Shown: in pieces, positions 2,988 through 24,833 of the stretch
Position numbering within the stretch: position 1 is the stretch's first letter
How the letters are laid out: each line of letters starts with the position of its first letter
Assembly: GCA_014695195.1 (NCBI GenBank)
Contig: JACJNW010000032.1
Span: 62,001 to 126,000 of the forward strand
DNA length: 64,000 bases
Origin: Cyanobacteria bacterium FACHB-DQ100
GTDB lineage: Bacteria; Cyanobacteriota; Cyanobacteriia; Leptolyngbyales; Leptolyngbyaceae
Direction of reading: 5' to 3'
The notes under the pieces: model-generated
Database searches by the model: none
Told to the model about the DNA's origin: nothing
What the model saw: only the letters and a program-made list of their open reading frames with translations
Made by a program: the position numbers and the translations under genes

Positions 2988-3194
2988 ACAACCTCCGGTG
3001 GCAACTAAAGTATTGTGCATTATTTAACTACCATTAAACTGAGTCGTTTTCAGAAGATTTTTCTAAGAAGGAATAGCGATCGCATCGAATTAATTCTTTG
3101 AATTCTAATTCTGTTTCCTTTTCTACTGGTTAGCTAGAGTGTGAGAAACTACAGTTGCATTCACAGCCCAGCTATTTTTCTAGAGCAATTTAAT

Positions 3195-5035: not shown

Positions 5036-5082
5036 GTAGCGTTTCTGAAAATCTACATCTGTCCAACAATCAACCAATTGCC

Positions 5083-6006: not shown

Positions 6007-6080
6007 TGCTTGATACTTGTTTCTATTCTTTGAATACCAGGACAGGTCTCTCAATACAACTCTTTTAGAACCCTACCCCG

Positions 6081-7013: not shown

Positions 7014-7052
7014 TCTTTGCGTTTTTTGCTGCTGTTCATTCTCCAAATAACT

Positions 7053-8255
7053 ATGACATCTTTATTGCGCCGTCCTGCTCGTCCTCAACAGTCCTCGCTC
7101 CCGATCCTTAAACAGCAGTTTGAAGTAAACTTTCGATATGAAGTTCACTTTACACAAGGCTTATTTCGGACAGATAATCCACTCCTGGCGCAAGTCATTG
7201 CTCAACAGGCAGATGCAGACGCTAAAAAAATGTTGGTTGTGGTCGATGGAGGCTTGCTCCCGCATCATCCCCAGCTATTGAATCAAATTGAATCCTATAC
7301 CAAAGCTTACCCAAAGTTAGCCCTGCCCATTTCTCCGATCGTGGTTCCCGGTGGTGAAGCCGCAAAGAACAATCCTAGTCTAATTGAGCAACTGCATCAG
7401 GCGGTCGATGACATTGGGTTATGTCGTCACTCTTATGTAGTCGCGATCGGTGGTGGTGCGGTATTGGATATGGTTGGCTATGCTGCGGCAACCGCTCATC
7501 GGGGCATTCGCCTGATTCGAGTACCCACTACGGTTCTGGCTCAGAATGACTCTGGAATTGGCGTGAAAAATGGTATTAATGCCTTCAACAAAAAGAACTT
7601 TTTAGGAACCTTTGCGCCACCCTTTGCGGTACTGAATGACTTTGAGTTTTTAACGACGCTCGACGATCGCGACTGGCGATCGGGCATGGCGGAAGCAATC
7701 AAAGTGGCGTTGATCAAATCACCTGAATTTTTCACCAACATTGAAGCTCAAGCAGAGGCACTCGCACGACGAGAGATGCCAGCGATGCAGCACCTCATCT
7801 ATCACTGTGCCCAACTTCATCTAGAGCATATTGCCGGACATGGCGATCCGTTTGAACTGGGATCATCGCGACCCTTGGATTTTGGGCACTGGGCAGCGCA
7901 TCGATTAGAGCGGCTCACGAATTATGAATTGCGGCATGGAGAAGCAGTTGCGATCGGGATTGCGCTGGATGCAACCTATTCCTATTTAATCAATCTTTTA
8001 CCTGAAGCAGATTGGCAACGCATTTGTAAAACTCTGAAAACATTAGGCTTTACGCTGTTTGTTCCAGAGTTAACTAGCTATCTTGATGAGCCAGAGCACC
8101 CTTTATCCCTGTTTCGCGGGCTGAGTGAATTTCGGGAACATTTAGGCGGAGAGCTAACGTTGATGCTATTAAAGCAAGTGGGTCAGGGTCTGGAAGTCCA
8201 TCACGTTGATTGGGAACAGTACCGCAAAGCGATCGCGATTCTATCTACTCTCTAA
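7053..8255 (+). CDS. eboD: EboD, 3-dehydroquinate synthase-like enzyme
   Basis: A 400-residue protein of the dehydroquinate synthase/sugar phosphate cyclase superfamily. Landmarks are VVVDGGLL, VVPGGEAAKN, the NAD-binding AIGGGAVLDMVGYAAATAHRG, PTTVLAQNDSGIGVKNGIN and the metal/substrate segment LRHGEAVAIGIALD. It is likely a cyclase acting on a sugar phosphate other than DAHP, since housekeeping AroB is usually encoded elsewhere; this is inference. The frame is open from a TTG at 7017, but the first sensible start is ATG 7053 (MTSLLRRPARP). It follows eboC closely and precedes eboE by 22 bp. Confidence 0.93.
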   Translation: MTSLLRRPARPQQSSLPILKQQFEVNFRYEVHFTQGLFRTDNPLLAQVIAQQADADAKKMLVVVDGGLLPHHPQLLNQIESYTKAYPKLALPISPIVVPGGEAAKNNPSLIEQLHQAVDDIGLCRHSYVVAIGGGAVLDMVGYAAATAHRGIRLIRVPTTVLAQNDSGIGVKNGINAFNKKNFLGTFAPPFAVLNDFEFLTTLDDRDWRSGMAEAIKVALIKSPEFFTNIEAQAEALARREMPAMQHLIYHCAQLHLEHIAGHGDPFELGSSRPLDFGHWAAHRLERLTNYELRHGEAVAIGIALDATYSYLINLLPEADWQRICKTLKTLGFTLFVPELTSYLDEPEHPLSLFRGLSEFREHLGGELTLMLLKQVGQGLEVHHVDWEQYRKAIAILSTL

Positions 8256-8277
8256 AGTTCTATTTGTCATCCTAGTC

Positions 8278-9495
8278 ATGCGTCTTTCCACTCCATCCCC
8301 GCTCCATCTCACTTATTGCACCAATATTCATCCGGGTGAAAGCTGGGATGCAACCTACACCAATCTACGAACTTATCTTCCTGTTCTGAAACAGCAGCTT
8401 AGCCCAGATCAGTCTTTTGGTGTTGGGTTGCGTTTGGCAGATGCCGCTACCCAGGAGCTTTTTCAGGGGGACAACCTGATCGAGTTTCAGACCTGGCTTC
8501 AGGCACAGGATTTGTATGTCTTTACGATCAACGGATTCCCTTTTGGAGGCTTTCACCACCAGATTGTGAAAGATCAGGTCTATGCACCTGATTGGTCGAA
8601 ACCAGAACGCCTAGCGTACACCGAACGTTTGATTCGCATTTTGGCAGCTTTACTACCAGAAGGTATAGACGGTGGAATTTCAACGCTGCCTCTATCCTAT
8701 AAACCTTGGTGGCAAAACGATGCAACAGCGCAGGAGAAAGTATTTCACCATAGCAGTTTGAATTTGGCGCAGGCAGTTGTGGTAATGGCTCAAGTACATC
8801 AACAAACTGGAAAGCTATTGCACCTAGACCTTGAACCAGAACCGGATGGATTGATTGAAAACACGCAAGAAACGATCGCATTTTTCCAAGACTGGCTACT
8901 CCCAATCGGAACTCCTGTTCTCACGCAGGCACTAGGAGTAGATATCCAAACAGCAGAAACTTTAATCCGACAGCATATTCGGCTTTGCTATGATACCTGT
9001 CATTTTGCGGTGGAATATGAGGAACCTGCGATCGCTCTAGCCGCACTAAAAGCGGCAGGCATCAAGGTTGGTAAGTTTCAACTCAGCGCCGCGCTCAAAA
9101 TTACTTTACCGGAACCCTCTGAGCGCCAATCTTTGATTCAATCGTTAGCTCCGTTTGCAGAATCAACTTATCTGCATCAAGTCGTGACTCGTCATGCAGA
9201 TGGAGCGCTTCAGCACTATGCGGATTTGACAGAAGCAATGCCCTATCTTGCGATCGATGCTGCGATCGAATGGCGCACTCACTTTCACGTTCCTATCTTT
9301 ATTGATCGCTACTCTTCTTTTGCTTCGACACAAGATCACATCTATCAGGCGCTTCAGAACCTATCGCTTGCACCAGATTGTACACACTTGGAAATTGAAA
9401 CTTACACCTGGGATGTCTTACCGCCTGCAATGAAGCTGGACATTCTAGAGTCTATTCAGCGCGAATATCACTGGGTTTTGAAAACTCTGGCTTGA
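8278..9495 (+). CDS. eboE: EboE, metabolite traffic protein (xylose-isomerase-like TIM barrel)
   Basis: A 405-residue protein with a sugar-phosphate isomerase/epimerase-like barrel. It opens with LHLTYCTNIHPGESW and includes LHLDLEPEPDG and RLCYDTCHFAVEYEEP, which carry the typical acidic/His metal-site residues. This is the conserved EboE protein; its exact reaction is unknown. The open frame extends upstream into eboD, but ATG 8278 (MRLSTPSPLHL) is the natural start, 22 bp after eboD. It is co-transcribed with the rest of the ebo operon. Confidence 0.9.
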   Translation: MRLSTPSPLHLTYCTNIHPGESWDATYTNLRTYLPVLKQQLSPDQSFGVGLRLADAATQELFQGDNLIEFQTWLQAQDLYVFTINGFPFGGFHHQIVKDQVYAPDWSKPERLAYTERLIRILAALLPEGIDGGISTLPLSYKPWWQNDATAQEKVFHHSSLNLAQAVVVMAQVHQQTGKLLHLDLEPEPDGLIENTQETIAFFQDWLLPIGTPVLTQALGVDIQTAETLIRQHIRLCYDTCHFAVEYEEPAIALAALKAAGIKVGKFQLSAALKITLPEPSERQSLIQSLAPFAESTYLHQVVTRHADGALQHYADLTEAMPYLAIDAAIEWRTHFHVPIFIDRYSSFASTQDHIYQALQNLSLAPDCTHLEIETYTWDVLPPAMKLDILESIQREYHWVLKTLA

Positions 9496-9532
9496 TTGCG
9501 ATCGTTCCATTCACTGAATTTCTCAGCAACTC

Positions 9533-10906
9533 ATGAAAAAAACTGTTGTTATTAATGTGGTTGGTCTAAGTTCAAGGCTGTTAGGAGAGCATACTCCGCA
9601 GCTAAAACAATGGATCGCACAAGGTCGGATCGCGACGATCAAGCCGGTTCTGCCTGCTGTAACCTGTACCGCACAAGCGACTTATCTCACCGGACGCTAT
9701 CCCACAGATCACGGCATTGTTGCTAACGGCTGGTATTTTCATGACGACTGCGAAATCAAGTTCTGGCGACAGTCGAACAAGCTGGTACAGAGTCCGAAAA
9801 TCTGGGACGTTGCCCGAAGCATTGATCCTGAGTTCACCTGTGCGAACTTATTCTGGTGGTACAATATGTACTCCTCGGTCGACTATTCGGTGACACCCCG
9901 CCCCATGTATCCGGCTGATGGGCGCAAGCTTCCAGATATTTATACCCAACCTGCCGATCTCCGCTCTACGCTCCAGACTGAGCTTGGAGAGTTCCCCTTG
10001 TTTAAGTTTTGGGGCCCTGCGACTTCTGCTGAATCAAGCCAGTGGATTGCGGCATCGGCGAAACGAGTTGAGGAACTGTACAGTCCCACGCTGACTCTGA
10101 TTTATCTTCCTCATTTAGATTACTGTTTGCAAAAGATTGGCTGTCAGCCCGATGAGATTGCTCAAGATTTGCAGGAAATTGATGCTATCTGTGGCGATCT
10201 GATTGCTTACTATGAAAACCGTGGCGCTCAAGTCATTCTTCTTTCTGAATATGGCATTACTCCGGTCAATCAGCCGATTCACCTCAACCGCGTACTGCGT
10301 CAAGCAGAGCTGCTGCAAGTTCGAGAGGAATTAGGGCGAGAACTGTTAGATGCTGGGGCAAGTAAAGCCTTTGCTGTTGCAGATCACCAAATTGCTCACG
10401 TGTATGTTAATGATCCAAGCTGTCTCGACAAGGTAAAGCAATTACTTGAACAAACAGATGGCGTGGACCTGGTGCTGGATGAGGCAGGCAAAGAAGCCTA
10501 TCATCTTGACCATCCTCGATCAGGCGATCTGATTGCTGTTGCTAAACCGAACGCCTGGTTCACGTACTACTACTGGATGGACGATCGCAAAGCTCCCGAT
10601 TTTGCTAGAACAGTCGATATCCATCGCAAACCAGGATATGACCCCGCAGAACTGTTTATTGATCCTCAGATCAAACTACCGAAACTTAAACTGGGAACAA
10701 CACTCCTGAAGAAAAAATTGGGATTCCGGTATCTGATGGAAGTCATTCCGTTAGATGCCAGTGTGGTAAAAGGATCGCACGGGCATCTCACACCAAGTGC
10801 AGCAGACTGCCCAATGCTAATCACCCGCGAAACCGACCTACTGCAAAGAGATTCTCTAGAAGCCACTGATGTATTTCATGTGATTCTAAGCCACCTGAAG
10901 CGTTAA
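9533..10906 (+). CDS. eboF: EboF, alkaline phosphatase/nucleotide pyrophosphatase family protein
   Basis: A 457-residue member of the alkaline-phosphatase superfamily, type I phosphodiesterase/nucleotide pyrophosphatase branch. The nucleophile region VTCTAQATYLTGRYPTDHGI is near residues 42-61. Metal-binding segments LPHLDYCLQK and LLSEYGI follow in the expected order, and a terminal GSHGHL holds another ligand His. No signal peptide is evident. It would cleave a phosphodiester or pyrophosphate bond of an unknown metabolite. It is the last gene of the ebo operon, 37 bp after eboE. A P450 gene follows after 149 bp on the same strand. Confidence 0.9.
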   Translation: MKKTVVINVVGLSSRLLGEHTPQLKQWIAQGRIATIKPVLPAVTCTAQATYLTGRYPTDHGIVANGWYFHDDCEIKFWRQSNKLVQSPKIWDVARSIDPEFTCANLFWWYNMYSSVDYSVTPRPMYPADGRKLPDIYTQPADLRSTLQTELGEFPLFKFWGPATSAESSQWIAASAKRVEELYSPTLTLIYLPHLDYCLQKIGCQPDEIAQDLQEIDAICGDLIAYYENRGAQVILLSEYGITPVNQPIHLNRVLRQAELLQVREELGRELLDAGASKAFAVADHQIAHVYVNDPSCLDKVKQLLEQTDGVDLVLDEAGKEAYHLDHPRSGDLIAVAKPNAWFTYYYWMDDRKAPDFARTVDIHRKPGYDPAELFIDPQIKLPKLKLGTTLLKKKLGFRYLMEVIPLDASVVKGSHGHLTPSAADCPMLITRETDLLQRDSLEATDVFHVILSHLKR

Positions 10907-11055
10907 TAACCGCCTCTCTTGCTCAGCGCCGGAGTACCCAATTAACCGTGGTAGCGCTTATCCTGGAGATATCCAAGCAGCAGATTTTTAGTCGGCGGGG
11001 TGTCTCAAGACCAACGGACGGGATGTACTCCGAATCTCACACAGTGGAGGGGCTA

Positions 11056-12435
11056 ATGAACTTACCAAATACGCTACAGACTCCGTTCTTACTGCAAGAA
11101 TTGCAATGGGTTGCTGATCCCGTAAGCTACATGGAAAAAGCGGCTCAGCAGCATCCTGATCTCTTTTCGGCAGGAATTGTTGGGGGGAGTCATCTAGTTT
11201 TTGTCAATCATCCGCAAGCGATTCAAGATATCCTCACCAGCGATCGCAAGCGCTTTCTCGCTCCCGGAGAAGTGAACCAAATTCTGGCTCCGCTGATTGG
11301 TGACTATTCGGTAATTATGCTCAGTGGCGATCGGCATAAGCGTCGTCGCCAATTGTTGATGCCTCCGTTTCATGGTGAACGAATGCGGGCTTATGGCAAT
11401 TTAATCTGCAAGCTCACCGAAAAAGTTTTTAGTCGAATTCCGATCGCTCAATCCTTCACGGCGCGATCGGCGACGCAGGAAATTTCGCTACAAGTCATTC
11501 TAGAGGCTGTGTTTGGTGTAACTGAGGGAGAGCGATTTAATCGCCTCCGATCAGCAATTACAACGATGACCGAGCGATTCCGCTCTCCCTTAGCGGCGAG
11601 CTTTTTGTTTTTCCCATGGATGCAGCGAGATTTGGGGGCGTGGATGCCGTGGGGCAAGTTTCTGCGCGATCGTGCCGAAATTGACAAGCTACTGTATGCC
11701 GAGATTGCCGATCGTCGTCGCGAGAACAATCCCGATTGGGTAGATATTCTGTCGTTGCTGATGGCAGCCCGCGATGAGAATGGTGAGCCGATGAGCGATC
11801 CAGAACTCCGGGATGAACTGATGACCTTGCTGTTTGCTGGACATGAGACGACCGCAACAGCGATGGCTTGGGCGCTGTACTGGACTCATCGCTTGCCCCA
11901 AGTGCGTGAGAAATTGCTGCAAGAGCTTGATTCGATCGGCTCTAATCCCGATCCCATGACAATTGCCCGCTTGCCCTATCTCAGCGCAGTTTGTAACGAA
12001 GCCTTGCGCTTGTATCCGGTTGCAATGCTTACGTTTACCAGAGTCGTGAACGAACCGTTGGAACTCTTAGGACATCCGCTTCAGCCCGGAGTGAATGTGG
12101 TCGGCTGTATTTACCTGCTGCATCACCGGGAAGATCTTTACCCAGATTCGCACCAGTTTAAACCAGAGCGCTTTTTAGAACGGCAGTTTTCTCCGTTTGA
12201 GTTTATGCCGTTTGGGGGTGGGGCACGGCGCTGTATTGGTGAAGCGTTGGCGGTGTTTGAGATGAAGCTGGCACTGGCAACGATTTTGTCGCGCTATCAG
12301 CTTGCCTTAGCCGATCGTCGTCCCGAAGTGCCGCGTCGCCGTGGGGTGACGCTTGCTCCAGCGAGAGGAGTCAAACTCCAGATTGTGGGGCAAAGACCGG
12401 TGCGATCGACGGAAGCGATGGCGCAGACGAGATAG
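11056..12435 (+). CDS. Cytochrome P450 (CYP110-like)
   Basis: A 459-residue soluble bacterial P450. Hallmarks are the I-helix AGHETTATAMAW, the ExxR motif in NEALRLYP, the PERF segment FKPERFL and the haem-binding loop FMPFGGGARRCIGEA with the axial Cys. Overall it resembles the CYP110 group common in cyanobacteria. It would hydroxylate a lipid or other hydrophobic substrate using electrons from ferredoxin. The start ATG 11056 has an excellent GGAGGGG just upstream, so a longer frame from 10948 is disregarded. It lies directly downstream of eboF on the same strand and may act on the same metabolite, which is inference from position only. Confidence 0.93.
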   Translation: MNLPNTLQTPFLLQELQWVADPVSYMEKAAQQHPDLFSAGIVGGSHLVFVNHPQAIQDILTSDRKRFLAPGEVNQILAPLIGDYSVIMLSGDRHKRRRQLLMPPFHGERMRAYGNLICKLTEKVFSRIPIAQSFTARSATQEISLQVILEAVFGVTEGERFNRLRSAITTMTERFRSPLAASFLFFPWMQRDLGAWMPWGKFLRDRAEIDKLLYAEIADRRRENNPDWVDILSLLMAARDENGEPMSDPELRDELMTLLFAGHETTATAMAWALYWTHRLPQVREKLLQELDSIGSNPDPMTIARLPYLSAVCNEALRLYPVAMLTFTRVVNEPLELLGHPLQPGVNVVGCIYLLHHREDLYPDSHQFKPERFLERQFSPFEFMPFGGGARRCIGEALAVFEMKLALATILSRYQLALADRRPEVPRRRGVTLAPARGVKLQIVGQRPVRSTEAMAQTR

Positions 12436-13117: not shown

Positions 13118-13840
13118 TCACAGCAGGAAAATGCAGCCGACGACAATCAATAAGCCAAAAATAATCTGATTAAATCTCGGCTGCGGGATGAGACGATTAA
13201 TCTTGCTCCCAACGTAAATTCCGATGCTAATTCCGGGGATTGACCAGAGAAACAACTGCCAAACCATCGGAGTCCACAGTCCTGCAAATCCGTGCCCTGC
13301 GATCGTCGCGATGCCTGAAAATAGAAAATAGCACTGCATCGTTGCCCGAAAATAAGTGGCTGACCAACGACGCAGCACCCCGTAGATTGCGATCGAAGGT
13401 CCATTAGTGTTATAGGCTCCTCCTAAAATTCCTGCAATAAATCCAAACCAGATTGCATATCGTTCATGGGAAAGCTGAGGAAACCTTACAGAAATGAGAT
13501 TGTACGATCCGTACAGAATTAGGATAATGCCAAGTCCAATCTTGACCAACTTTTCAGGCGCATACTGTAACAGCAATAAGCCAAAAGGAACTCCAATGAC
13601 TGTTCCAACAATCAACTGCCACGCCGACTTGAGGTCAACACTATCTTGATCGGAAATTAAGATGATTAAGCTGATGATAAATCCTGTGAATGCTACGACA
13701 GGAGTGGCAGTTCGCAAACTCATGATTAAACCGAGCAGCGGCATAGCAAGCAGTGCATCACCAAAACCGATCGCTGAACGAATTGAGGTGCAGACAAATA
13801 AAATCAAAGCGGTTGCGATCGTTAAAGTAAAGGGTTCCAT
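13118..13840 (-). CDS. TauE/SafE family sulfite/anion exporter
   Basis: A 240-residue membrane protein with about seven or eight spans and the TauE/SafE family's two-fold repeat. The repeats carry RSAIGFGDALLAMPLL near the N-terminus and GFIAGILGGAYNTNGPSIAIY in the middle. Members export sulfite, sulfoacetate or related anions, or import some of them. It is the last gene of a leftward run and starts 8 bp after the YeiH-like gene, so the two are co-transcribed. Beside the AsfAB-like genes it would plausibly remove sulfite released from sulfonates; that role is inferred from context. Confidence 0.9.
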   Translation of the reverse strand: MEPFTLTIATALILFVCTSIRSAIGFGDALLAMPLLGLIMSLRTATPVVAFTGFIISLIILISDQDSVDLKSAWQLIVGTVIGVPFGLLLLQYAPEKLVKIGLGIILILYGSYNLISVRFPQLSHERYAIWFGFIAGILGGAYNTNGPSIAIYGVLRRWSATYFRATMQCYFLFSGIATIAGHGFAGLWTPMVWQLFLWSIPGISIGIYVGSKINRLIPQPRFNQIIFGLLIVVGCIFLL

Positions 13841-13848
13841 GCAAGAGA

Positions 13849-14913
13849 CTAATAAAACAGTTTGATCAGCCCATAGCTAAAAATAGAAATAAATAACCAA
13901 GATAAAGCACCTAAGTATAAAGGTTTTAATCCAATCTTCTGAATCTGATTCAGCCTTGTTTCTAAACCCATTGCTGCCATTGCGATCGCTAATAGAATTT
14001 GGTTTAGCTGTGCGATCGCACTTTTTAAGCCCTGTGGAAATAAGTTCAAGCTATTGAGCAGAATCAAAAGCATGAAATACATAACAAACCAAGGGATTGC
14101 CACTTTTGTTTTTAAGGAATCAGTTTTGGAAACTGATCCAAGTAGTAGAACGATCGGAGCTAACCAAAGCACTCTTGATAACTTCGAGATACTAGCCACC
14201 TCACCGCTGAGCGGACTAGCTTGAAATGCAGCCGCAATTACCTGTGCAACTTCATGGATTGAAACCCCGCACCACAATCCGAATGCTTCTGGCGTTAGGT
14301 GTAGCTGTCCTATCAGCAATGGATACGAAAGCATAGAGAATGTTCCAAACAGGGTCACAATTGCAACCGCATAAGTGATATCTTCATCTGCACTTTTAGT
14401 TGTGGTACTGGTTGCAATCACGGCAGAAGCACCACAAATCGAAGTTCCCGCAGCAATGAGACGAGTCAAGCTAGAATCAATTCCTAACTGTTTTCCTAAC
14501 CAACAAGTTAACCAAAATGTACTCAGTAAAGTCGCTATGGTGATCAACATTCCTGCGATGCCAACTGAGAAGACTTGTAGCAGGCTGAGTTGAACGCCAA
14601 GCAGAACCACTGCAAATCGGAGGACTCTCTTCATTGCAAAACTAATTCCTGCTTGAGCGTGTGAGGGTGTTCCGATCGTATTTCGCACCAGAATGCCGAG
14701 TAGAATCGACAGAATTAGCGGACTAAAGAGATGGAATCCGGGAACCAGTCGCAGCAGATAAGCGATCGCGGCTAAGCCGGAAGTGAGCAAGATTCCTGAC
14801 TGAATTTGAGCAAAGCCTATTTTTGCCTGTATCGCTATCTGTGAGTAGAAATCACTTTGAAGCGGAGCGATTTTTACAGCGAAGGGCTTCACATTATTTA
14901 CTTTTTGTCGCAT
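13849..14913 (-). CDS. YeiH family (UPF0324) putative sulfate/sulfite exporter
   Basis: A 354-residue polytopic membrane protein of the UPF0324/YeiH family, with about ten hydrophobic spans. Family signatures are RFAVVLLGVQLSL, AAGTSICGASAVIA and CGVSIHEVAQVIAAAF. The family is annotated as putative sulfate exporters and is linked to sulfur metabolism in several bacteria, but transport has rarely been shown directly. It is followed 8 bp later by a TauE/SafE exporter. A 95-bp gap containing a hairpin separates it from the upstream Mrp gene on the same strand. Confidence 0.9.
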   Translation of the reverse strand: MRQKVNNVKPFAVKIAPLQSDFYSQIAIQAKIGFAQIQSGILLTSGLAAIAYLLRLVPGFHLFSPLILSILLGILVRNTIGTPSHAQAGISFAMKRVLRFAVVLLGVQLSLLQVFSVGIAGMLITIATLLSTFWLTCWLGKQLGIDSSLTRLIAAGTSICGASAVIATSTTTKSADEDITYAVAIVTLFGTFSMLSYPLLIGQLHLTPEAFGLWCGVSIHEVAQVIAAAFQASPLSGEVASISKLSRVLWLAPIVLLLGSVSKTDSLKTKVAIPWFVMYFMLLILLNSLNLFPQGLKSAIAQLNQILLAIAMAAMGLETRLNQIQKIGLKPLYLGALSWLFISIFSYGLIKLFY

Positions 14914-15008: not shown

Positions 15009-16109
15009 TCAGCACAAAACCACTTCTTTTAATGGTCTATGTTTGATTGAACAGAACGTTGTTTCAAGTGCTGAAGCAACATTGAGAAACACTTGTCCCG
15101 TTAATGAAGTCGGATCAGCCAGCGTTAGAGGTTTTCCAGCGTCACCGCCTGCACAAATTCGAGCATCGATCGGAACTTGTCCCAATAATGGAGTGTGAAG
15201 TTCTTCTGCTAACTGCTGTCCACCACCACTGCCGAAAATCGGAGTTGGTTCGCCGCAGTGCCCGCACAGTAAATAGCTCATATTTTCGATGATGCCGAGA
15301 ACTGGAATTCCGACGCGACGAAACATATGAATACTACGACGAACATCGGAGATCGCAACCTGCTGTGGTGTCGTCACTAGCAACACACCGCAAATCGGAC
15401 TTTCTTGGACGATCGTAATCTGAGCATCCCCAGTGCCGGGAGGGAGATCAATCAGCAAATAGTCTAAATCGCCCCATTCGACCTCGTGAATGAACTGAGT
15501 AATGATTTTGTGCAGAACAGGGCCTCTCCACGCTAACGGATGATCAGGTTCTGCCAGCAATCCGACTGACATCACCTTAATTCCGTGTGCTTCTAAAGGC
15601 AAAAATCGCGTTCCTTCAGCCGTTTCGATGATTTCTACTTGGGACTGTCCTAATCCAAGCATTTGCGGCACATTTGGGCCATAAATATCTGCATCGAGAA
15701 GACCCACTTTTGCCCCTTGTAGACTAAGCGCGATCGCAAGATTAACAGAAGTCGTTGATTTTCCAACTCCCCCTTTACCACTAGAGATTGCTAACGTGGT
15801 TCTCACTCCCGGAATCGTACAAAGCTGGATGTAAGCCTTTTTGCACCAAGTCAGTTGTGAAAGTACATCCTCAATCTGTGATTTCAAGCCATGTTGATGC
15901 TGACCAACATAAAGACGGAGATACACATACCCATCGACCACTCTAAGATTACGAACCATTCCCAAACTCACAATATTGTTGTTCAGAATAGGTTCAGTGA
16001 CCGTTTTAAGCAGTTCAGTCACTGCTTGCTGTCTAGCTTCAGCAATTGGATCGGTCGTAGATGCAGGAGACTCGTGAACCGTCTGAAACGGCGATCGGTG
16101 GTTAGGCAT
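15009..16109 (-). CDS. Mrp/ApbC/NBP35-type P-loop ATPase (Fe-S cluster carrier)
   Basis: A 366-residue Mrp-family protein. The N-terminal MIP18/DUF59-like domain (about 20-95) is followed by a deviant Walker A, SSGKGGVGKST. Later come DADIYGPNVPQ, DLPPGTGDAQ and a C-terminal CxxC (LCGHCGEPTP), the usual bridging site for an Fe-S cluster. Such proteins load Fe-S clusters onto target enzymes. The ATG at 16109 overlaps the stop of the HEAT-repeat gene by 8 bases, a tight translational coupling; this, not the longer frame to 16172, is the start. Its place directly behind an Fe-S ferredoxin gene suggests a dedicated maturation role, which is inference. Confidence 0.92.
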   Translation of the reverse strand: MPNHRSPFQTVHESPASTTDPIAEARQQAVTELLKTVTEPILNNNIVSLGMVRNLRVVDGYVYLRLYVGQHQHGLKSQIEDVLSQLTWCKKAYIQLCTIPGVRTTLAISSGKGGVGKSTTSVNLAIALSLQGAKVGLLDADIYGPNVPQMLGLGQSQVEIIETAEGTRFLPLEAHGIKVMSVGLLAEPDHPLAWRGPVLHKIITQFIHEVEWGDLDYLLIDLPPGTGDAQITIVQESPICGVLLVTTPQQVAISDVRRSIHMFRRVGIPVLGIIENMSYLLCGHCGEPTPIFGSGGGQQLAEELHTPLLGQVPIDARICAGGDAGKPLTLADPTSLTGQVFLNVASALETTFCSIKHRPLKEVVLC

Positions 16110-17070
16110 TGGAGGGTTCTTGCAAAGCTTCTTGGATGGTCTGAATAGCGCGTTGAGCAAAGATACAGACATCGCGATCGGGATCGTCGAGCGATTGCTG
16201 TAATGGATTAAGGGCGGTTGGATTTTTCAGAATACCAAGCGCGATCGCGGCATCTCGACGAATGTCGGAATACTCATCGGTGAGCGCCTGAATGAACAAT
16301 GGGAGAGAATGATCATCAGGTGTTTTTTGCAAGGCTTGTAAGCTGAACTTACGCACCTGCCAATGCTCATCTTTTAAGGCAGCTTCTAGAGAGGAAATTG
16401 CACTGCGATCGGCATGAATTGCCAAAGACTTGGCTGCATTTCGCCGCACTTCCCAATCTGAATCATTGGTCAGTGCTTCACACAGACGAGGAACAACTTC
16501 TACATCGCTTAAATGCCCCAAAGTTAAGGCAGTTGCTCGTCGAACACTTGCATCTGAATCAGACATCAGTGCTAATGCAGGTTGACAGCGTTCGACTTGG
16601 TTGAGATATCGCAATGTTGTGACTGCCGATTCTCTTAAAGCAGGGTTAGAAGATTCAAAGAAGGGCAGCACATACGGTAGGGATTGAGCATCATGAATCT
16701 TCCGCAGCAGGAATAAAGCATTAAGCTGTAGATTCACATCGTCTTGGAGTAGCGCATCGAGCAACATGAGTAGATGATCCGGAGCGACCAATTCACCTAA
16801 CGCCGATCGCGCTTCATCGCGAATTTCTTCATCAGGAGAAGCAAGACATTCAATCAGTGCCGGAACTGCTGCTGGATTAGCAAGTTCCCAGAGCGCGGTC
16901 ACTGCTAGTTTTTGCACTAAGAAGCTTTCATCTTTTAGTGCATCGATTAACGGTGCTAAAGCTTCTTCATCTCCAAGATGCTGCAATGTTTTGACCGCAA
17001 CAAGACGATCTTCGACCTCTGGCGATCGTAGCATCTCCAACCAAGGAGCAAGTTCAGAGTTGGTTTCCAT
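16102..17070 (-). CDS. HEAT-repeat protein
   Basis: A 322-residue all-helical protein built almost entirely of about nine to ten HEAT/PBS-lyase-type repeats of 30-32 residues. Examples are RLVAVKTLQHLGDEEALAPL, VQKLAVTALWELANPAAVPAL and VRRNAAKSLAIHADRSAISS. It has no catalytic motif and no signal peptide, so it is a cytoplasmic scaffold. Cyanobacterial HEAT proteins include phycobilin-lyase subunits and the Fe-S-related IaiH. Here the coupling to an Mrp ATPase and the ferredoxin 9 bp upstream points to Fe-S assembly or complex assembly rather than phycobilisome work (inference). GGGGGA precedes the ATG. Confidence 0.88.
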   Translation of the reverse strand: METNSELAPWLEMLRSPEVEDRLVAVKTLQHLGDEEALAPLIDALKDESFLVQKLAVTALWELANPAAVPALIECLASPDEEIRDEARSALGELVAPDHLLMLLDALLQDDVNLQLNALFLLRKIHDAQSLPYVLPFFESSNPALRESAVTTLRYLNQVERCQPALALMSDSDASVRRATALTLGHLSDVEVVPRLCEALTNDSDWEVRRNAAKSLAIHADRSAISSLEAALKDEHWQVRKFSLQALQKTPDDHSLPLFIQALTDEYSDIRRDAAIALGILKNPTALNPLQQSLDDPDRDVCIFAQRAIQTIQEALQEPSNA

Positions 17071-17079
17071 TACTTCCCC

Positions 17080-17307
17080 CTAGCGCAACAAGAACGGAAT
17101 TTGCACAGTGATTGCATTGGTCGGACATTCCTTTTCGCAAGGTAAGCAGAACCAACACTCATCGTATTTCATGTAAGCTTTGCCTGTTTCGGGGTCTTTT
17201 GCTAAAACGTCTAATGGACAAACTTCAATGCAGGCAACGCATTTTTCAAGGCATTTGGATTCATCGACAATGACGGGGACATCGACTCTTTGAGTTGCTA
17301 AAGCCAT
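17080..17307 (-). CDS. AsfB/AprB-like 2[4Fe-4S] ferredoxin
   Basis: A 75-residue ferredoxin with two cluster motifs. The first, CLEKCVACIEVCP, is spaced C-x3-C-x2-C-x3-C-P. The second, CWFCLPCEKECP, is spaced C-x2-C-x2-C-x3-C-P. The order and the aromatic residues between the motifs resemble the N-terminal part of the APS-reductase beta subunit and AsfB. It lies 28 bp after the flavoprotein gene and is expected to be its electron-transfer partner. A good AAGG sits 8 bases before the ATG. Confidence 0.92.
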   Translation of the reverse strand: MALATQRVDVPVIVDESKCLEKCVACIEVCPLDVLAKDPETGKAYMKYDECWFCLPCEKECPTNAITVQIPFLLR

Positions 17308-17335: not shown

Positions 17336-19037
17336 TTAACGAACGGCGACATCATACACTTCGGTTTCAACATCCACATCGACAATGTAAGGTTCGATCG
17401 GACGCTTAAATAACACCATGTTTCCATCTTCATTCTTTTTCAGATGCACATGACAGAACCATTCATCATTGTTCTTTTCTGGATAGTCTACGCGATAGTG
17501 ATACAGTCCCCAGCGACTTTCGCGGCGGAAGAGTGAGGCTCTTGCTGCCATTTCTGCACAATCGCGAATAAAGTGAACTTCCATACAGCGCATCAGTTCG
17601 TGTGGATCACGCGCACCCATGAGGTCTAAGGTGTCGTGATAGCGTACAAAGTTGCTCAGCCCGATTTCCATGCGATTTGCAGATTTCGGGGGCTGTAGAT
17701 AGTCATTCACTAAGCGGCGCAGCTTGTATTCGACTTGAGTATGCGGGATGCCGTTGGATCGATCGAGCGGTGCATAGATTCTTGCTTTTTCGGCTGCCAG
17801 GAACTCTGGATCAGGATCAACATGATCTAAGCTTTGAACATATTCGACTGCATGTTCTCCAGCAATTCGTCCAAACACAAATGCACCAATCATGTAGTTG
17901 TGTGGCACACTCGCCATGTCTCCTGCTGCATAAAGTCCTGGCACTGAAGTTTCAGCCCGCTCATTTACCCAGACCCCAGAGGCACTATGACCACTACAGA
18001 GTCCAATCTCAGAAATGTTCATCTCGACGCCATTCGTGCGATAGTTCTCACCTCGACCTTCATGGAATCTGCCGCGACTGGGACGCTCATTCGACCACAA
18101 AATCGACTCAATTTCAGAGATCGTATTTTCGTCTAAATGAGTCATCTTCAGTTGAATCGGGCCTTTACCAGAGTTGAGTTCTTTCCAAACTTCCAGCATC
18201 ATTTGACCGCTCCAGTAGTCACAGCTAATGAAGCGGTGGCCTTGTGCATTTGCTGTGTAAGCTCCAAATGGGCTGGCAACATACGCACAAGCAGGCCCGT
18301 TGTAGTCTTTCATCAACGGATTGATTTGGAAGCATTCAATGTTACTTAGTTCCGCGCCTGCATGGTATGCCATCGAATAGCCATCACCTGCATTAGTGGG
18401 GTTCTCATAAGTTCCATAGAGATAGCCCGAAGCAGGTAATCCTAACCGTCCGCAAGCTCCCGTACAGAGAATCACAGCTTTCGCTTGAATGACAACGAAA
18501 TCACCATTGCGAACATCAAAACCGACTGCACCGATCGCACGTCCATCCCGAACTAACACGCGAGTCGCCATCACCCGATTGGTCACTTGGGCTTTGTGAC
18601 GCTTCACTTGACGCGCCAAAATCGTCTTCAAGTCTTTTCCTTCTGGCATCGGCAAAACGTATTTACCCACCCGATGCACTTGCTTGAGGTCGTAATTGCC
18701 TTGAGTATCTTTCTGAAATTTTACGCCCCAGCTTTCGAGTTCCTGAATCACAGAAAAGCCAAGTTTACCTGTTTGATAAACCGCATTCTGATTGAGAATT
18801 CCATCATTGGCGATCGTAATCTCTCGAACATATTGTTCTGGAGTTGAGTTACCGGGAATGACGGCAGTGTTGACACCATCCATGCCCATTGCGATCGCGC
18901 CACTTCGACGAATGTTCGCTTTTTCCAGGACGAGCACTTCACCATCGGGATTCGCCTGCTTTGCTTTGATGGCTGCCATTGTTCCAGCGGTCCCGCCCCC
19001 GATTACCAGAACATCCGTCTTCATCCATTGAGTATTC
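17336..19037 (-). CDS. AsfA/AprA-like FAD-dependent oxidoreductase
   Basis: About 566 residues, succinate dehydrogenase/fumarate reductase-APS reductase flavoprotein fold. The FAD dinucleotide motif is DVLVIGGGTAGTMAA (residues 9-23); GAIAMGMDGVN and GYLYGTYENPTNAGDGYSMA follow. The second FAD segment is SVPGLYAAGDMASV and the C-terminal helical domain is of AprA type. In Pseudomonas putida, asfA and asfB encode a reductase and ferredoxin needed for aryl-sulfonate desulfonation and are regulated by a LysR protein; the same set is present here. True dissimilatory APS reductase is unlikely, because no sat or dsr genes are seen. The start is a GTG near 19039 with GGGAGG 8 bases upstream. Confidence 0.87.
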
Positions 19038-19039
19038 AC

Positions 19040-19318: not shown

Positions 19319-21271
19319 ATGGAAGTTTATCAGATTCGAGTTTTTCTAGAAGTTGCTCGTCACCTGAGTTTTACGGAAGCAGCAGATGCTCTAAACCTGA
19401 CCCAGCCTGCGGTAAGCGCTAAGATCAAGTCGCTAGAAACCGAGTTAGGAACTTCGCTGTTTTATCGTTTAGGTCGTAAGATTCAACTGACAGAGGTAGG
19501 AGAATTCTTATTGGAAGAAGGAGCAAAACTGATTCAAATTGAAAATGAGTTGCTCCAAAAAATTGAAAATATTAAAAAAGGAAAATATGGCAGCCTGAAA
19601 ATTGGCTGTACGATGGCGCTTGCTGAAGGCTGGTTGCCAAGTGTTGTGTTTGAATATCGACAACAATATCCGAGCATTCAGGTTCAGTGTTTGGTGTTTG
19701 AGTCCGCCGAATTGCTCTATCAAGCGATGACGAGTCAAACAGTGGATGTCGGAATTTCTGATGTGAATTTTGAAGAATTTTCGGAACTTTCAGCCACCGC
19801 GATCGACACGATTTCCTATCAGTTGTTTGTCGCCCACACTCACCCCCTGGCAAAACAACACTGGTTGAGCTTATCAGATTTGAGAAAGTATCCTTGGGCG
19901 CTGCTGCCTTCAGGTACACCCAGCCGCTTAGTCTTAGAATCGCGCTTATCAGAGTTAGGCTTCTCGCTCGATAATTTTCTTCAGTTTGAAACTGTCGATA
20001 CGATGAGCCTAATGCGAACGTATATGATGCAGGGGAACTATCTTGGATTCGCAACGAACTTCGACTTTAAACCAGAGTGTGAATTGGGAACTGTGAGCGC
20101 GATTCCGATTCAAGAATTTGCGCTGTCTGGAACTGTCTATCTGGTCACACCTCGGCGATTAGCTCAAGCAAACACAGCAACTTCATCGGGTCGTCGATCG
20201 CGCAGTCTCAACCCGATCCAGAAATTGATCCACCTGCTGCAAGCCAAACATTCTGCGGCTCAACCTGGCTCAAATGTCGTTCGTCTACGATCGCCGAGCT
20301 TCACTCGGCGCAGCAATTCATCTTCCCGCCCCGAAGTGCTGACGCTCTCGATCGGAGTTCAAAACAGTACCGTTCCGGCTGTGACCGCAGGGCTGATTAT
20401 CCAACGGCTCGGACTGCTAGAACATTTCTTACCGAAAGAAGGGCGATATAGCTCAACACAATACAAGATTCAGTGGCAGGACTTTTCGACCGGAGCACCG
20501 ATCGTCGATAGACTACGAGCGCAGCAATTAAACATTGGTGTTCTGGGTGACTATCCATTGCTTCTAAGTGCTGAAGCCGGACAAAACACTCGTTTGATTA
20601 GCTTTGTTTCCACCAATCCCGATGGATCTTGCAATGCGGTTGTGGTTCCGAACCGTTCTCAGCTTCAGAGTGTGGATGACTTGCGTGGACGAGCGATCGC
20701 GGTTCCACTGCGGTCTTCTGCACATGGAATGGTGTTGCGATCGCTGAATGCAATGAACCTCTTAAATCAAGTGAACTTGCTTCCTCTCGAATCCGCGCAT
20801 CCATTTGAGTTCTCTGAACACTACGCTGATGGCTATGCTCACTTTGCACCCTTTCATGACATTGCTTGTCGTCGGGGACAGTTCCGCTATCTAGGCGGCT
20901 GTAATCCTGAAGCTTTGCCCGCTTTTTATGGGGTAGTGGTGACGAGTGAGCTTGCAGAACAATACCCGGAAGTTGCGATCGCCTATCTGCGGGCGCTGTC
21001 TGCTGCACAGTATTGGTACGATACCACTCCAACTGCACCGTCTTTAGTTGCAAAATGGACACAGCTTGACTCAGAGGTGATTGTGCAAATTCTCAGCAGT
21101 TCTTATCAACCAAATCAACCTGGACGGTTCTTCTCGGAGATGAGCATTCGTCCTGATTGGCTGAGATTACACATTGATCAACTTAGTCTGATTCCGGGAA
21201 ACCAGGAGCTACAAACCATTAACTTGAATCAATGGATTCAGTCAGAGTTCTTGCAGCAGGCTAGAGCTTAG
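19319..21271 (+). CDS. LysR-type regulator fused to an SsuA/NrtA-like solute-binding domain
   Basis: A 650-residue fusion, about twice the length of a normal LysR protein. Residues 1-60 are the winged helix (FTEAADALNLTQPAVSAKIKSLE) and about 90-275 a LysR effector domain. A Ser/Arg-rich linker (about 280-335) joins a further 300 residues that align by eye with the ABC binding protein encoded at 23331-24833. Shared landmarks are FLPK/YLPK, GDYPL/GDFPL, AHGMVL in both, and FYGVVV/FHGVVV. The extra domain has no signal peptide, so it works in the cytoplasm, probably as a sensor of the transported substrate or a derivative. The gene is divergent from the flavoprotein operon and convergent with the transporter operon. 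Confidence 0.9.
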   Translation: MEVYQIRVFLEVARHLSFTEAADALNLTQPAVSAKIKSLETELGTSLFYRLGRKIQLTEVGEFLLEEGAKLIQIENELLQKIENIKKGKYGSLKIGCTMALAEGWLPSVVFEYRQQYPSIQVQCLVFESAELLYQAMTSQTVDVGISDVNFEEFSELSATAIDTISYQLFVAHTHPLAKQHWLSLSDLRKYPWALLPSGTPSRLVLESRLSELGFSLDNFLQFETVDTMSLMRTYMMQGNYLGFATNFDFKPECELGTVSAIPIQEFALSGTVYLVTPRRLAQANTATSSGRRSRSLNPIQKLIHLLQAKHSAAQPGSNVVRLRSPSFTRRSNSSSRPEVLTLSIGVQNSTVPAVTAGLIIQRLGLLEHFLPKEGRYSSTQYKIQWQDFSTGAPIVDRLRAQQLNIGVLGDYPLLLSAEAGQNTRLISFVSTNPDGSCNAVVVPNRSQLQSVDDLRGRAIAVPLRSSAHGMVLRSLNAMNLLNQVNLLPLESAHPFEFSEHYADGYAHFAPFHDIACRRGQFRYLGGCNPEALPAFYGVVVTSELAEQYPEVAIAYLRALSAAQYWYDTTPTAPSLVAKWTQLDSEVIVQILSSSYQPNQPGRFFSEMSIRPDWLRLHIDQLSLIPGNQELQTINLNQWIQSEFLQQARA

Positions 21272-21521: not shown

Positions 21522-22343
21522 TCACTCTACCTCCATACTTTTCATCGTTTCCTCTCGAATCAGTTCAAAAATCTCGCGGTTCAGTTGCAAAAACCCTGAA
21601 GTAACCGTGATATCACTGTGTCTCGGTCGGTCTAAAGGAACATTGACGATTTGCTTAATCCTGCCTGGATTCACTCCCATCACAAAGATACGATCGCTCA
21701 GGAACACTGCTTCTTCAATATCGTGCGTAACAAAAATCACAGTTGTTTTCTGTTCACTCCAGATATCGAGCAGAAGCTCCTGCATCATATGTCGGGTCTG
21801 AGCATCCAGCGCTGCAAAGGGTTCGTCCATCAACAACACAGAAGGAGAGTTTACCAAGGCACGAATGATACTTGCCCGTTGCTGCATTCCTCCGGATAGT
21901 TGATAGGGATAAGAGTGACGATGCTTGTACAATCCAACACGGTTGAGATAGTAATTCACAATCTCTTTGCGCTTTTCAGTCGGAATGCCTTGAATCTTCA
22001 GCCCAAATTCGACATTCTGAAACGTCGTTTTCCAGGGCAACAGAGAATACTGCTGAAACACAAAGCCACGATCGGCTCCAGGACGAACAACAACCCTGCG
22101 ATCGACTGAGACAGAGCCACAAGACGGCTTGATAAACCCCGCAATTGCATTCAGAATCGTGGACTTACCGCACCCGGATGGGCCGAGCAAACACACAAAT
22201 TCACCGGGAGCGATCGTAAAGTCGATCGACTCCAACACCGGGATTAACTGCCCTTTTCGCTTAAAACAAATTGATAAATCTTCAACCTCTACCAGTCCTT
22301 TGAGTGCTTGTTGTGGAGTTCCTTGCTCGATTAACATTGTCAC
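21522..22343 (-). CDS. ABC transporter ATP-binding protein (SsuB/NrtD-like)
   Basis: About 273 residues, an ABC ATPase of the nitrate/sulfonate/taurine group. The Walker A is GPSGCGKST, the Q-loop FQQYSLLPW, the signature LSGGMQQRASIIRAL, Walker B VLLMDEPFAALD and the H-loop VIFVTHDIEEAVF. It energises uptake together with the permease encoded 13 bp upstream. Start choice is uncertain: GTG 22349, GTG 22343 and ATG 22337 are all in frame, and the spacing from AGAGG favours 22343. Third gene of the binding protein-permease-ATPase operon. Confidence 0.93.
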   Translation of the reverse strand: MTMLIEQGTPQQALKGLVEVEDLSICFKRKGQLIPVLESIDFTIAPGEFVCLLGPSGCGKSTILNAIAGFIKPSCGSVSVDRRVVVRPGADRGFVFQQYSLLPWKTTFQNVEFGLKIQGIPTEKRKEIVNYYLNRVGLYKHRHSYPYQLSGGMQQRASIIRALVNSPSVLLMDEPFAALDAQTRHMMQELLLDIWSEQKTTVIFVTHDIEEAVFLSDRIFVMGVNPGRIKQIVNVPLDRPRHSDITVTSGFLQLNREIFELIREETMKSMEVE

Positions 22344-22362
22344 AATCACTATCCTCTACTGA

Positions 22363-23241
22363 TTAATTGCTGGTTCCTTTCTTGGTGACGCGCCAAGGCA
22401 TCAAGACATGAGTGAGACGATCGACTGCAAAAGAACTCAGTGATCCCATTAATCCGATCAGCAGCATTCCCATGACGATCGGCGGATAGTTAGAAGTCAC
22501 ATAAGATTCCCAAGTGAGATAACCAATCCCAAATCGCCCTGCTAAGATTTCTGCGGTTACAAGACAAAACCAGGAATTCCCCATACCAATCACTAAGCCA
22601 CTCGCAATATTTGGCATGGCTCCCGGAACTACAATGTCCTTGAAGACCTGCCATTGTTGCGCTCCCAAGCACTGTCCAACGCGCAACAACAGTAAATCAG
22701 TGCCTTCAACCCCTTTGATCGTGCTGATTAAGATTGGAAAGAATGCACCAATAAAGGTAATGTAGACCATTCCTGATTCTGCATCAGGAAACATCAAAAT
22801 CGCGAGCGGAATCCAAGCAACCGCAGGAATCGGACGCAGAATTTCTAAGGGTAGAAAAACTAAGTCTTCGATCTTTTGAAACCAGCCGATTACAATTCCT
22901 AAGCTAATTCCTAACACTGCTGCGATCGCATATCCCAACAGCACCCGCATCACACTCGCCTGCAAGTGCATCATTGGGTTGCTTGAGAAGAACTTAACTG
23001 TTGCACCGAGAACTTCCAGTGGAGAAGGCAGAAACGAAAAATTAATGAAGAATTGGAACTTGATCGCACAGAGAAACTGCCAAATTCCAAAAAACAAGAC
23101 AAGCGAAAGTACCCGCAGGAAGACACGCAATAGATTGAGCCGCGAAGTTCCTTCTGATTTTTGAAATAGCTGTGACAATAGAAAACTCAAGCGATCGACG
23201 ATGCTGAGTTTTGTCGATCGCTCAGAGGATGAGCTAGACAT
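22363..23241 (-). CDS. ABC transporter permease (SsuC/NrtB-like)
   Basis: About 292 residues with six membrane spans and the BPD_transp_1 domain. The EAA-like loop reads VGQCLGAQQWQVFKDIVVPGAMPNI. The family is the nitrate/sulfonate/taurine permease type (LRPIPAVAWIPLAILMF). ATG 23241 has GGAGG 6 bases upstream, so the longer frame to 23283 is not used. It lies between the binding-protein and ATPase genes and shares their operon. The substrate cannot be read from the sequence; the neighbourhood suggests an organosulfonate. Confidence 0.92.
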   Translation of the reverse strand: MSSSSSERSTKLSIVDRLSFLLSQLFQKSEGTSRLNLLRVFLRVLSLVLFFGIWQFLCAIKFQFFINFSFLPSPLEVLGATVKFFSSNPMMHLQASVMRVLLGYAIAAVLGISLGIVIGWFQKIEDLVFLPLEILRPIPAVAWIPLAILMFPDAESGMVYITFIGAFFPILISTIKGVEGTDLLLLRVGQCLGAQQWQVFKDIVVPGAMPNIASGLVIGMGNSWFCLVTAEILAGRFGIGYLTWESYVTSNYPPIVMGMLLIGLMGSLSSFAVDRLTHVLMPWRVTKKGTSN

Positions 23242-23330
23242 GAAGTGCCTCCAATCGGTGAAAGAAAACGAGTAGGAACGCATTGTTTCATGTTCAACGC
23301 ATTCCTAGCTGTATCAAAAGCGCCTTGCAC

Positions 23331-24833
23331 TTAGCGCGCTGCTAAACTAGGCTGGGATGCTTGTGCGGAAAATTCTTGCAGCCCCTTAAAGCCAACCACC
23401 TGAGCGCCATTCGTCTGGGCAAAGGCTTGAGCATCTTTCTCAGTCAGGAATGCAGAAATACCATCATTGTTGCGAACAAAGAAGGAATTTTCGGCAAACA
23501 GTTTCCAGCCGTTGGTGCGATCGTGAACAAAGATTGCACTCACCGCCTGCTTTCCTTCTGCTTGAATCTTTTTCAATGCCGTCATCATATTTTGAATCGA
23601 GGCATAGTTTCTGACTTTATCTTCATCCTTGAGCCACAGTTGAGCCGCTAATTTTGCATCTTGAATCGGCTGCTTGGTTTCAGCATCCTCACCTGCGATC
23701 GTAAAGTTATCAGCTTCTGTCGCAGCTTGCTCGTAGTTCATTCCCATTTCTTGCATCGCCTGCTTGAGATAGCTGTCATCAACAAACTTAGTCACATCCT
23801 CCGTTTTGATGTTTGCATCTAGCCTTCCTAATTGTTTCAATGTGGTCACACTGTTGTTTAAGGCATCCAAATTCGGCTTGCGAATTGTGGGATTGAGTCG
23901 CTGTAAACCTGAAGGGCCAAGGAACATATAGACGACTTCTTTTTCCACACCCGCCCATTGTTCGACCTTGGCTGAGATTGCTTCGGGTTGTTCGCGGAAG
24001 AGCTTATTCGCTTCGAGCATTGCTTTCATATATGCCACGACAACTTCTGGATATTGTTTTGCGAAGTCCGATCGCACAACCACACCATGAAACGTGGGAA
24101 CACCAAGTTCTGCACCATCAAAAATCTTGCGTGCAAAGCCGCGGAAGGGAAATAGTTCGCCAAAGGGAACAAAGTTTGCATGAGCATCAATTTGATTGGT
24201 TCGGAGGCTGGTTCCGCCAACCTCTGGCGCTTGGCTAATTAGCTTGACATCCTTTTCAGGGTCAATGCCAGCGCCCTTTAACGCCTTCAGCACCATTCCG
24301 TGAGCCGCAGAACCAAACGGAACAGAAACTTGCTTGCCCTTCAAGTCTGCCAATGTTTTGACAGGACTATCTTTTGGAACCATGACTGCATTTCCAGCCC
24401 CGGTCGCGCTGTAACCCAAGGTGCCAATATAAAGCGTGTTAACACCGCCACCTTTCTGCTGAAAAGTTGTCATGTTAATTGTGAGGGGAAAGTCTCCCAT
24501 CATGCCGATATCAAGCTGATTGGCAAGCATTTTGTTGGTAATCGGAGGCCCTGAAGTGTAGCTTGACCACTCAATTTTGTACTCTACATTTTCGTATTTT
24601 CCGGTTTTGGGCAAATACTTTTCAAGCAATTTCTCTTCGCGAATAACAGAGCCTCCGGTTGCCGTGTTAATTACTTGATCTTGAGTGCCGATCGCAATGC
24701 GAATTACTTTTTTGCCACCCGAATTACCAGATACATTGCTTGCTTGAGTATTAGAACATGCAGCGACGAAAGCAAATGAACTGAGTGACAGAGAAAGCAA
24801 AAAGCCTCGACGAGTGAACCTCCGTCTATTCAT
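23331..24833 (-). CDS. ABC transporter substrate-binding lipoprotein with NosL-like C-terminal domain
   Basis: A 500-residue periplasmic binding protein. The N-terminus has a twin-arginine-like TRRGFLLSLS and a lipobox ending at FVAAC, so it is probably a Tat-exported or Sec lipoprotein. Residues about 40-340 are SsuA/NrtA-like. About 90 C-terminal residues (roughly 400-490) are unusual: AIFVHDRTNGW, ENSFFVRN and ISAFLTEKDAQAFAQTNGA resemble the NosL copper-chaperone fold. Ordinary SsuA proteins are about 320 residues and lack this tail. First gene of the transporter operon. The equivalent gene in Pseudomonas is asfC. Confidence 0.88.
   Translation of the reverse strand: MNRRRFTRRGFLLSLSLSSFAFVAACSNTQASNVSGNSGGKKVIRIAIGTQDQVINTATGGSVIREEKLLEKYLPKTGKYENVEYKIEWSSYTSGPPITNKMLANQLDIGMMGDFPLTINMTTFQQKGGGVNTLYIGTLGYSATGAGNAVMVPKDSPVKTLADLKGKQVSVPFGSAAHGMVLKALKGAGIDPEKDVKLISQAPEVGGTSLRTNQIDAHANFVPFGELFPFRGFARKIFDGAELGVPTFHGVVVRSDFAKQYPEVVVAYMKAMLEANKLFREQPEAISAKVEQWAGVEKEVVYMFLGPSGLQRLNPTIRKPNLDALNNSVTTLKQLGRLDANIKTEDVTKFVDDSYLKQAMQEMGMNYEQAATEADNFTIAGEDAETKQPIQDAKLAAQLWLKDEDKVRNYASIQNMMTALKKIQAEGKQAVSAIFVHDRTNGWKLFAENSFFVRNNDGISAFLTEKDAQAFAQTNGAQVVGFKGLQEFSAQASQPSLAAR

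Follow-up and report, generated by a model that had tools for sequence, protein, structure and literature searches.

The window analysed here is a stretch of 64,000 nucleotides from Cyanobacteria bacterium FACHB-DQ100 (contig JACJNW010000032.1), and its relevant features are collected in Table 1. They centre on a gene for a binding lipoprotein, in which a signal peptide and a solute-binding body are followed by a C-terminal tail with the NosL fold. Next to it lie genes for an ABC permease and ATPase, for a LysR-type regulator on the opposite strand, and for a flavoprotein, a ferredoxin, a HEAT-repeat protein and an Mrp/ApbC-type ATPase, with genes for a YeiH-family transporter and a further membrane protein behind them. 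The Pseudanabaena gene at the operon place of this last membrane protein is annotated as sulfite exporter TauE/SafE. Elsewhere in the window (4145-12435, forward strand) there is a gene run that may resemble an ebo cluster followed by a P450 gene.

Table 1. Features of the binding-protein locus. Fractions give the number of the 47 loci of the genome contig scan, several of them short, in which a match to the neighbouring gene was found.
Feature	Position	Strand	Basis or conservation
Binding lipoprotein with NosL-fold tail, 500 aa	23331..24833	-	ORF; Pfam NMT1 and NosL
Signal peptide up to lipobox Cys26	24756..24833	-	sequence; motif counts in relatives
SsuA/NrtA-type solute-binding body, about residues 42-360	23754..24710	-	NCBIfam SsuA family; structure matches
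NosL-fold tail, about residues 376-490	23364..23708	-	Pfam, hhalign, PDB profile search, domain model
Residues 383-388 (DAETKQ), aligned with the NosL copper-binding knuckle CxxCxM	23670..23687	-	alignment of 33 NosL proteins and 61 tails
ABC permease	22363..23283	-	BPD_transp_1; 44/47
ABC ATPase	21522..22349	-	ABC_tran; 42/47
LysR regulator with binding-protein-like C-terminal domain, no NosL tail	19319..21271	+	28/47
PAPS/APS-reductase-like flavoprotein	17336..19039	-	PDB 8a8o_A; 36/47
Ferredoxin, 75 aa, AprB-like, two 4Fe-4S motifs	17080..17307	-	35/47
HEAT-repeat protein	16102..17070	-	resembles HEAT part of PRK13800 and phycobilin lyase-type models, below cut-offs; 34/47
Mrp/ApbC-type ATPase	15009..16172	-	29/47
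YeiH-family transporter	13849..14913	-	TIGR00698, 216.9 bits against a cut-off of 232.6; 12/47
Membrane protein (TSUP gene)	13118..13840	-	no NCBIfam match; 3/47

The leader of the window's protein carries a Tat-like motif (TRRGFLL) and a lipobox. An earlier reading made from the sequence alone took the twin-arginine-like leader and lipobox to suggest export in folded form, in line with a metal-binding or redox tail. The Tat-like motif, however, is not kept across the family. Counted by regular expressions, on rows in which some start calls are truncated, it occurs in 8 of 44 cyanobacterial and 1 of 18 proteobacterial rows, while a lipobox occurs in 39 of the 44 and 2 of the 18. These counts do not show the conserved twin-arginine motif of a Tat-substrate family, and a coupling of a Tat leader with the tail is not supported.

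The body is matched by Pfam NMT1 (52.3 bits) and by the NCBIfam SsuA family (TIGR01728) at 136.1 bits; this is less than the 163.5 bits of the curated cut-off, so that the body falls short of assignment to that family. In the predicted full-length structure (mean pLDDT 72.6), the body resembles NrtA (2g29, Z 22.8), SsuA (3e4r, Z 22.2) and TauA (6ssy, Z 22.0). This fold and the partner genes for an ABC permease and ATPase identify the protein as SsuA/NrtA-type; its cargo is uncertain, because the body lies under the SsuA cut-off and matches NrtA, SsuA and TauA equally.

The tail had been described in the sequence-only reading as about 90 residues resembling the NosL copper-binding family. Pfam, profile-profile comparison with controls and the predicted fold all bear this likeness out, over a slightly longer region than claimed. 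Searched as that reading proposed, the Pfam NosL model (PF05573) matches residues 396-485 at 22.3 bits (E 1.8e-4), just under its gathering score of 24. In the whole-genome scan, the window's tail obtained 20.7 bits, or 26.8 bits with its neighbours in the frame, which was called over the cut-off. NosL was matched at E<=0.1 by 27 of the 28 scanned members (the window's protein and 27 of the 47 loci), at best with 2.6e-7, and three of seven further fusion genomes have a tail above the Pfam cut-off, whereas the tails of the remaining four obtained 14.5-20.3 bits. Taken alone, this Pfam evidence for NosL membership is marginal.

Comparison of profiles by hhalign gives a clear result. The NosL proteins used for it came from genomes belonging to the class of a Noviherbaspirillum genome (G292) and from a Polaromonas genome (G294). 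Against them, the tail profiles scored 73.1 (42 cyanobacterial rows), 88.4 (11 proteobacterial rows), 70.9 (7 proteobacterial rows) and 96.0 (all 60 rows). The controls remained far lower, with at most 15.5 for 40 column-shuffled NosL profiles per group, at most 11.7 for reversed NosL and 14.9 for the binding-protein body, which rules out a chance match. A failed profile-profile comparison had been named beforehand as grounds for abandoning the NosL claim; with 96.0 against at most 15.5 for shuffled profiles, the claim stands.

Structural evidence points the same way. A profile of 46 tails, searched against all PDB sequences, yielded four distinct matches at E<=1, all of them NosL, including 7og7 at E 1.1e-4. 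Matches to the body dominated a VIA search with the full-length model, in which NosL entries came 41st and 48th, and for this reason the tail was folded alone (pLDDT 88). Foldseek then returned five matches at E<=0.001 for the tail model, all NosL, and the next match had an E-value of 0.8. Similarly, VIA ranked the NosL crystal structure 7og7 first (Z 13.9, 2.1 A over 111 residues), followed by four NosDFYL entries and then by MerB (Z 8.3). The tail is thus a NosL-fold domain by its predicted structure, with NosL family membership that is marginal by Pfam and clear by hhalign with controls.

The same fusion, which the sequence-only reading had suggested looking for, occurs in other cyanobacteria and in alpha- and betaproteobacteria. 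A scan of genome contigs, seeded with two N-terminal patterns, found 47 loci, of which, judging by record titles, 43 are cyanobacterial and 4 betaproteobacterial. Two of them (L072 and L074) are truncated by contig ends and were left out of the tail and conservation counts; the remaining 45 all have the tail. Proteobacterial relatives were found in 13 of 145 genomes of the family of the Noviherbaspirillum genome (E<=1e-40), in 17 of 349 genomes of its phylum (E<=1e-30) and in two more. All of the proteobacterial frames read carry the tail; these searches used whole tailed queries and strict E-values, which favour tailed relatives, and tail-less bodies appeared in them only as remote relatives. 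In addition, 45 plasmid records match, 40 of them over at least 80% of the query. All 30 plasmid matches listed extend at least to residue 482, and the genera among them include Paraburkholderia, Rhizobium, Sinorhizobium, Bradyrhizobium, Methylocystis and Methylobacterium. The loci of five plasmid records were read, and the annotated records listed name the tailed protein only as an ABC transporter substrate-binding protein.

On a tree of the bodies, built with hand-chosen outgroups and having long branches, one change separates tail-bearing from tail-less proteins; the NosL-fold domain was probably fused to the C-terminus once. A recent fusion with a resident NosL was considered and rejected: the window's genome holds no other NosL match at E<=1, and a search of 292 genomes of its phylum at E<=0.01 found none in its class apart from the fusions. 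The nine NosL matches of this search are five fusions and four in genomes outside the class, so that the matches within the class are exactly the five fusions.

The surroundings of the fusion gene are conserved as well. By hand count, 31 of the 43 cyanobacterial loci have the order binding protein, permease, ATPase and then flavoprotein, most of them with a LysR-type gene in between on the opposite strand and with the ferredoxin, HEAT and Mrp genes behind. Eleven loci are without the flavoprotein, which was found elsewhere in the genome in all six cases tested. Four annotated proteobacterial plasmid loci keep the flavoprotein, ferredoxin, HEAT, permease and ATPase genes with other regulators, and one proteobacterial plasmid locus adds genes for a ferredoxin and a ferredoxin-NADP reductase. 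As a separate observation, the C-terminal domain of the LysR protein shares 35% identity with the body of the binding lipoprotein itself; this fusion is possibly a cytoplasmic sensor of the imported compound.

The best PDB match of the flavoprotein is 8a8o_A, the alpha subunit of the Methanothermococcus PAPS reductase (residues 4-549, E 4.4e-70), with APS reductase next, and the ferredoxin matches the beta subunits of PAPS and APS reductases, among other ferredoxins. The reaction of the pair is possibly a reductive release of sulfite. Of the 292 genomes of the window's phylum, 16 have a flavoprotein match at E<=1e-60, which is close in 12 (84-100% identity) and distant in four (30-33%, outside the class). 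The tailed binding protein is found in five of the 12 with a close match, and in the other seven a tail-less one stands beside the flavoprotein. These tail-less proteins (L194-L200) are 338-366 residues long and 25-29% identical to the window's, none of the seven has a NosL match, and the three that were scanned all score above the NCBIfam SsuA cut-off. One of their loci (L200) includes MetY, MetX and a TauD-like gene (251.9 bits against a cut-off of 313), and another includes an NtaA/DmoA monooxygenase. The SsuA-type alternatives and the MetX, MetY and TauD-like neighbours give the module a sulfur setting of sulfonate type. Of the two alternative binding proteins, one has the tail, which belongs to the importer, not to the enzyme; that the flavoprotein enzyme might require it is not supported, given the seven genomes that pair this flavoprotein with a tail-less SsuA-type protein.

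We compared the tails with NosL at the level of individual residues, in an alignment of 33 NosL proteins and 61 fusion tails (locus L140 included; one NosL row, L122, was left out because it had no motif for cropping). An excerpt of PMC6530538 names the Cys and Met of the CxM motif as the likely copper ligands of NosL; it also notes one other absolutely conserved Met and describes an extra Cys (CxxCxM) in clade II NosL. The CxM Met is present in 32 of 33 NosL proteins and in 0 of 61 tails. The second Met occurs in all 33 NosL proteins and in none of the 61 tails, where the loop that would hold it is shortened. The CxM Cys occurs in 25 of 33 NosL proteins and in 8 of 61 tails (absent in 53); its loss says less than that of the Met residues, because 8 of the 33 NosL rows themselves lack a Cys in this column (seven Asp, one gap). 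Most tails have DxxTx[EKQR] in place of CxxCxM, and eight have DxxC. Thirteen columns are at least 85% conserved in the NosL proteins; in most tails, ten of these (Asp, Ala, Ala, Tyr, Val, Phe, Ala, Phe, Gly, Gly) hold an identical or similar residue, and the three that are lost are both Met and one Gly in the second-Met loop.

The tails therefore have neither the CxM motif nor the second conserved Met of a functional NosL chaperone, and most of the tested genomes that encode them show no match to its client. The nitrous-oxide-reductase propeller (PF18764) has no match in the window's genome or in any of five high-quality cyanobacterial fusion genomes, and one in seven other fusion genomes tested, that of Polaromonas; overall, 11 of 12 fusion genomes are without a match. 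This Polaromonas genome was the sole positive of the search, in which 0 of 14 control genomes were positive. The sequence-only reading had gone further than NosL likeness and suggested a metal-binding or redox tail, with the substrate bound as a metal complex or with a cofactor delivered by the domain. With the Met ligands in 0 of 61 tails, these suggestions are not supported, and the absence of conserved ligand residues, which that reading itself had set against its claim, is what we observe for the known NosL ligands (Met 0/61, Cys 8/61).

The reading that we favour, at a probability of roughly one half, is that the window's protein is the binding lipoprotein of an importer of sulfonate, taurine or nitrate type, that its NosL-fold tail lacks a copper site and acts as a docking or structural module, and that the importer feeds the flavoprotein-ferredoxin enzyme. 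The solute-binding lipoprotein would serve the ABC importer; a NosL-fold domain would have been joined to its C-terminus, probably in a single event, and the copper site lost. In the window's tail, copper binding would most likely be absent, as the ligand columns suggest. The tail is predicted to be a self-stabilised, metal-free module, most likely packed on the binding protein, and we infer that it helps this protein to dock or to capture its substrate, somewhat as NosL forms part of the NosDFYL ABC complex. The importer would then supply the cytoplasmic PAPS/APS-reductase-like enzyme, which would probably free sulfite from the imported sulfonate-type compound.

The main rival to this docking role is that the tail handles the ligand, the old metal site now enclosing part of the substrate as a pocket or lid, just as MerB made it catalytic. 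Asp383, Trp400, Lys444 and Leu463 occur in every one of the 61 tails, an invariance that NosL does not share, and in a wider set of 80 rows, which takes in 19 of 22 further proteobacterial or plasmid loci (L151 and L160 repeat earlier genes and L159 was left out; L140 is again included), they are kept in 78, 80, 80 and 77 rows, respectively. Invariance of the first three (61/61) would suit a ligand-handling role, as would the fold shared with MerB and the exaptation of the metal site in NosL and MerB, which is described in an excerpt of PMC4999995. The tail-less protein beside the same enzyme in seven genomes also implies that substrate or affinity may go with the tail. However, no pocket or ligand is seen, and the invariant residues may be structural; we regard ligand handling as rather unlikely.

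Less likely still is a tail that binds copper or another metal through other ligands, or does so only in one clade. The homology to NosL found by hhalign and VIA would favour this, as would the distribution of cysteines: in the 80 rows, 65 tails, the window's among them, have no Cys, 15 have exactly two, at positions 386 and 415, and none has one alone. The two-Cys tails are all proteobacterial and form one subclade, which includes the Noviherbaspirillum protein (L076), L139, L161, L172 and 11 more rows. By homology to treble clefs, the two positions may lie near each other, and this subclade possibly has a thiol or metal site. Against it, the residue counts in both sets (neither NosL Met in any of 61 tails, no Cys in 65 of 80) and the 11 of 12 fusion genomes without a nitrous oxide reductase match do not support a metal-binding tail, and on a rapidly built tree of the bodies a single change accounts for the two-Cys rows (branch support 87), so that their all-or-none pattern may reflect one event. 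For the window's protein, a metal site is unlikely. We also observed that in a NosL protein at locus L124 (frame 2343-3368 of genome G434, 76.9 bits) the helix-start cysteines align with those of the two-Cys tails; judged by its sequence, this is possibly a near NosL relative of the tail.

That the tail is a functionless remnant, as the lost NosL ligands and the tail-less binding proteins beside the same enzyme might suggest, is very improbable, because it is present in all complete members read, has a confidently predicted fold and shows low dN/dS. In ten pairs, dN/dS ranges from 0 to 0.15 in the tail and from 0.02 to 0.12 in the body, the value for the tail being the higher in six; for the pair that includes the window's protein, dS has reached saturation (about 1.5). 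The tail is kept by selection.

Returning to the docking or structural module, a broader version of it can be put forward tentatively. The NosL fold would have become a new accessory domain without metal, and the importer binding proteins that carry it would form a class of their own, devoted to one reductive sulfur-release module of flavoprotein, ferredoxin, HEAT and Mrp proteins; the tail would dock the loaded protein or gate substrate release, and in the two-Cys tails a thiol pair would make this step redox-sensitive. Among open PMC papers, judged by their titles, we found no description of a NosL tail on a binding protein. These findings indicate that a copper-chaperone fold, apparently stripped of its copper site, has found a second use as a constant component of importer binding proteins in cyanobacteria and proteobacteria. 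Because tailed and tail-less natural versions adjoin the same flavoprotein, the function of the tail can be tested directly by removing or exchanging the domain, and the flavoprotein module may represent a little-described route to sulfur from sulfonate-type compounds.

Among known systems, the closest to the tail is NosL (PF05573), the copper chaperone of nitrous oxide reductase, which is found within the NosDFYL ABC complex (titles of PDB entries 7osf-7osj and 7znq). The two share the predicted fold (Z 13.9 to 7og7) and a similar profile, in which the tail keeps the conserved Asp438, Ala447, Phe462 and Ala468. They differ in that the tail lacks the CxM Met and the second Met, in the window's protein also the CxM Cys, and is fused to a binding protein in a genome without a nitrous oxide reductase match. 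The organomercurial lyase MerB belongs to the same fold class (Z 8.3), and the excerpt of PMC4999995 derives MerB and NosL as one fold from duplicated treble-clef zinc fingers; the sequences matched to the tail by structure are 9-11% identical to it, and the tail bears no sign of enzyme activity. With SsuA, TauA and NrtA, the window's protein shares the fold of the body (Z about 22) and the adjoining permease and ATPase genes. Unlike SsuA, its body is under the family cut-off and carries the NosL-fold tail, absent from all seven SsuA-type proteins encoded next to this flavoprotein. The module itself differs from the Methanothermococcus PAPS reductase and the dissimilatory APS reductase in adjoining a bacterial ABC importer. 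It also differs in two of the three residues given for PAPS specificity in an excerpt of PMC10322725 (Lys120, Arg121 and Ser122, aligned here with Lys, Tyr and Val), and for this reason we do not claim the same substrate; its flavoprotein and ferredoxin are nonetheless homologous to the two subunits of these enzymes.
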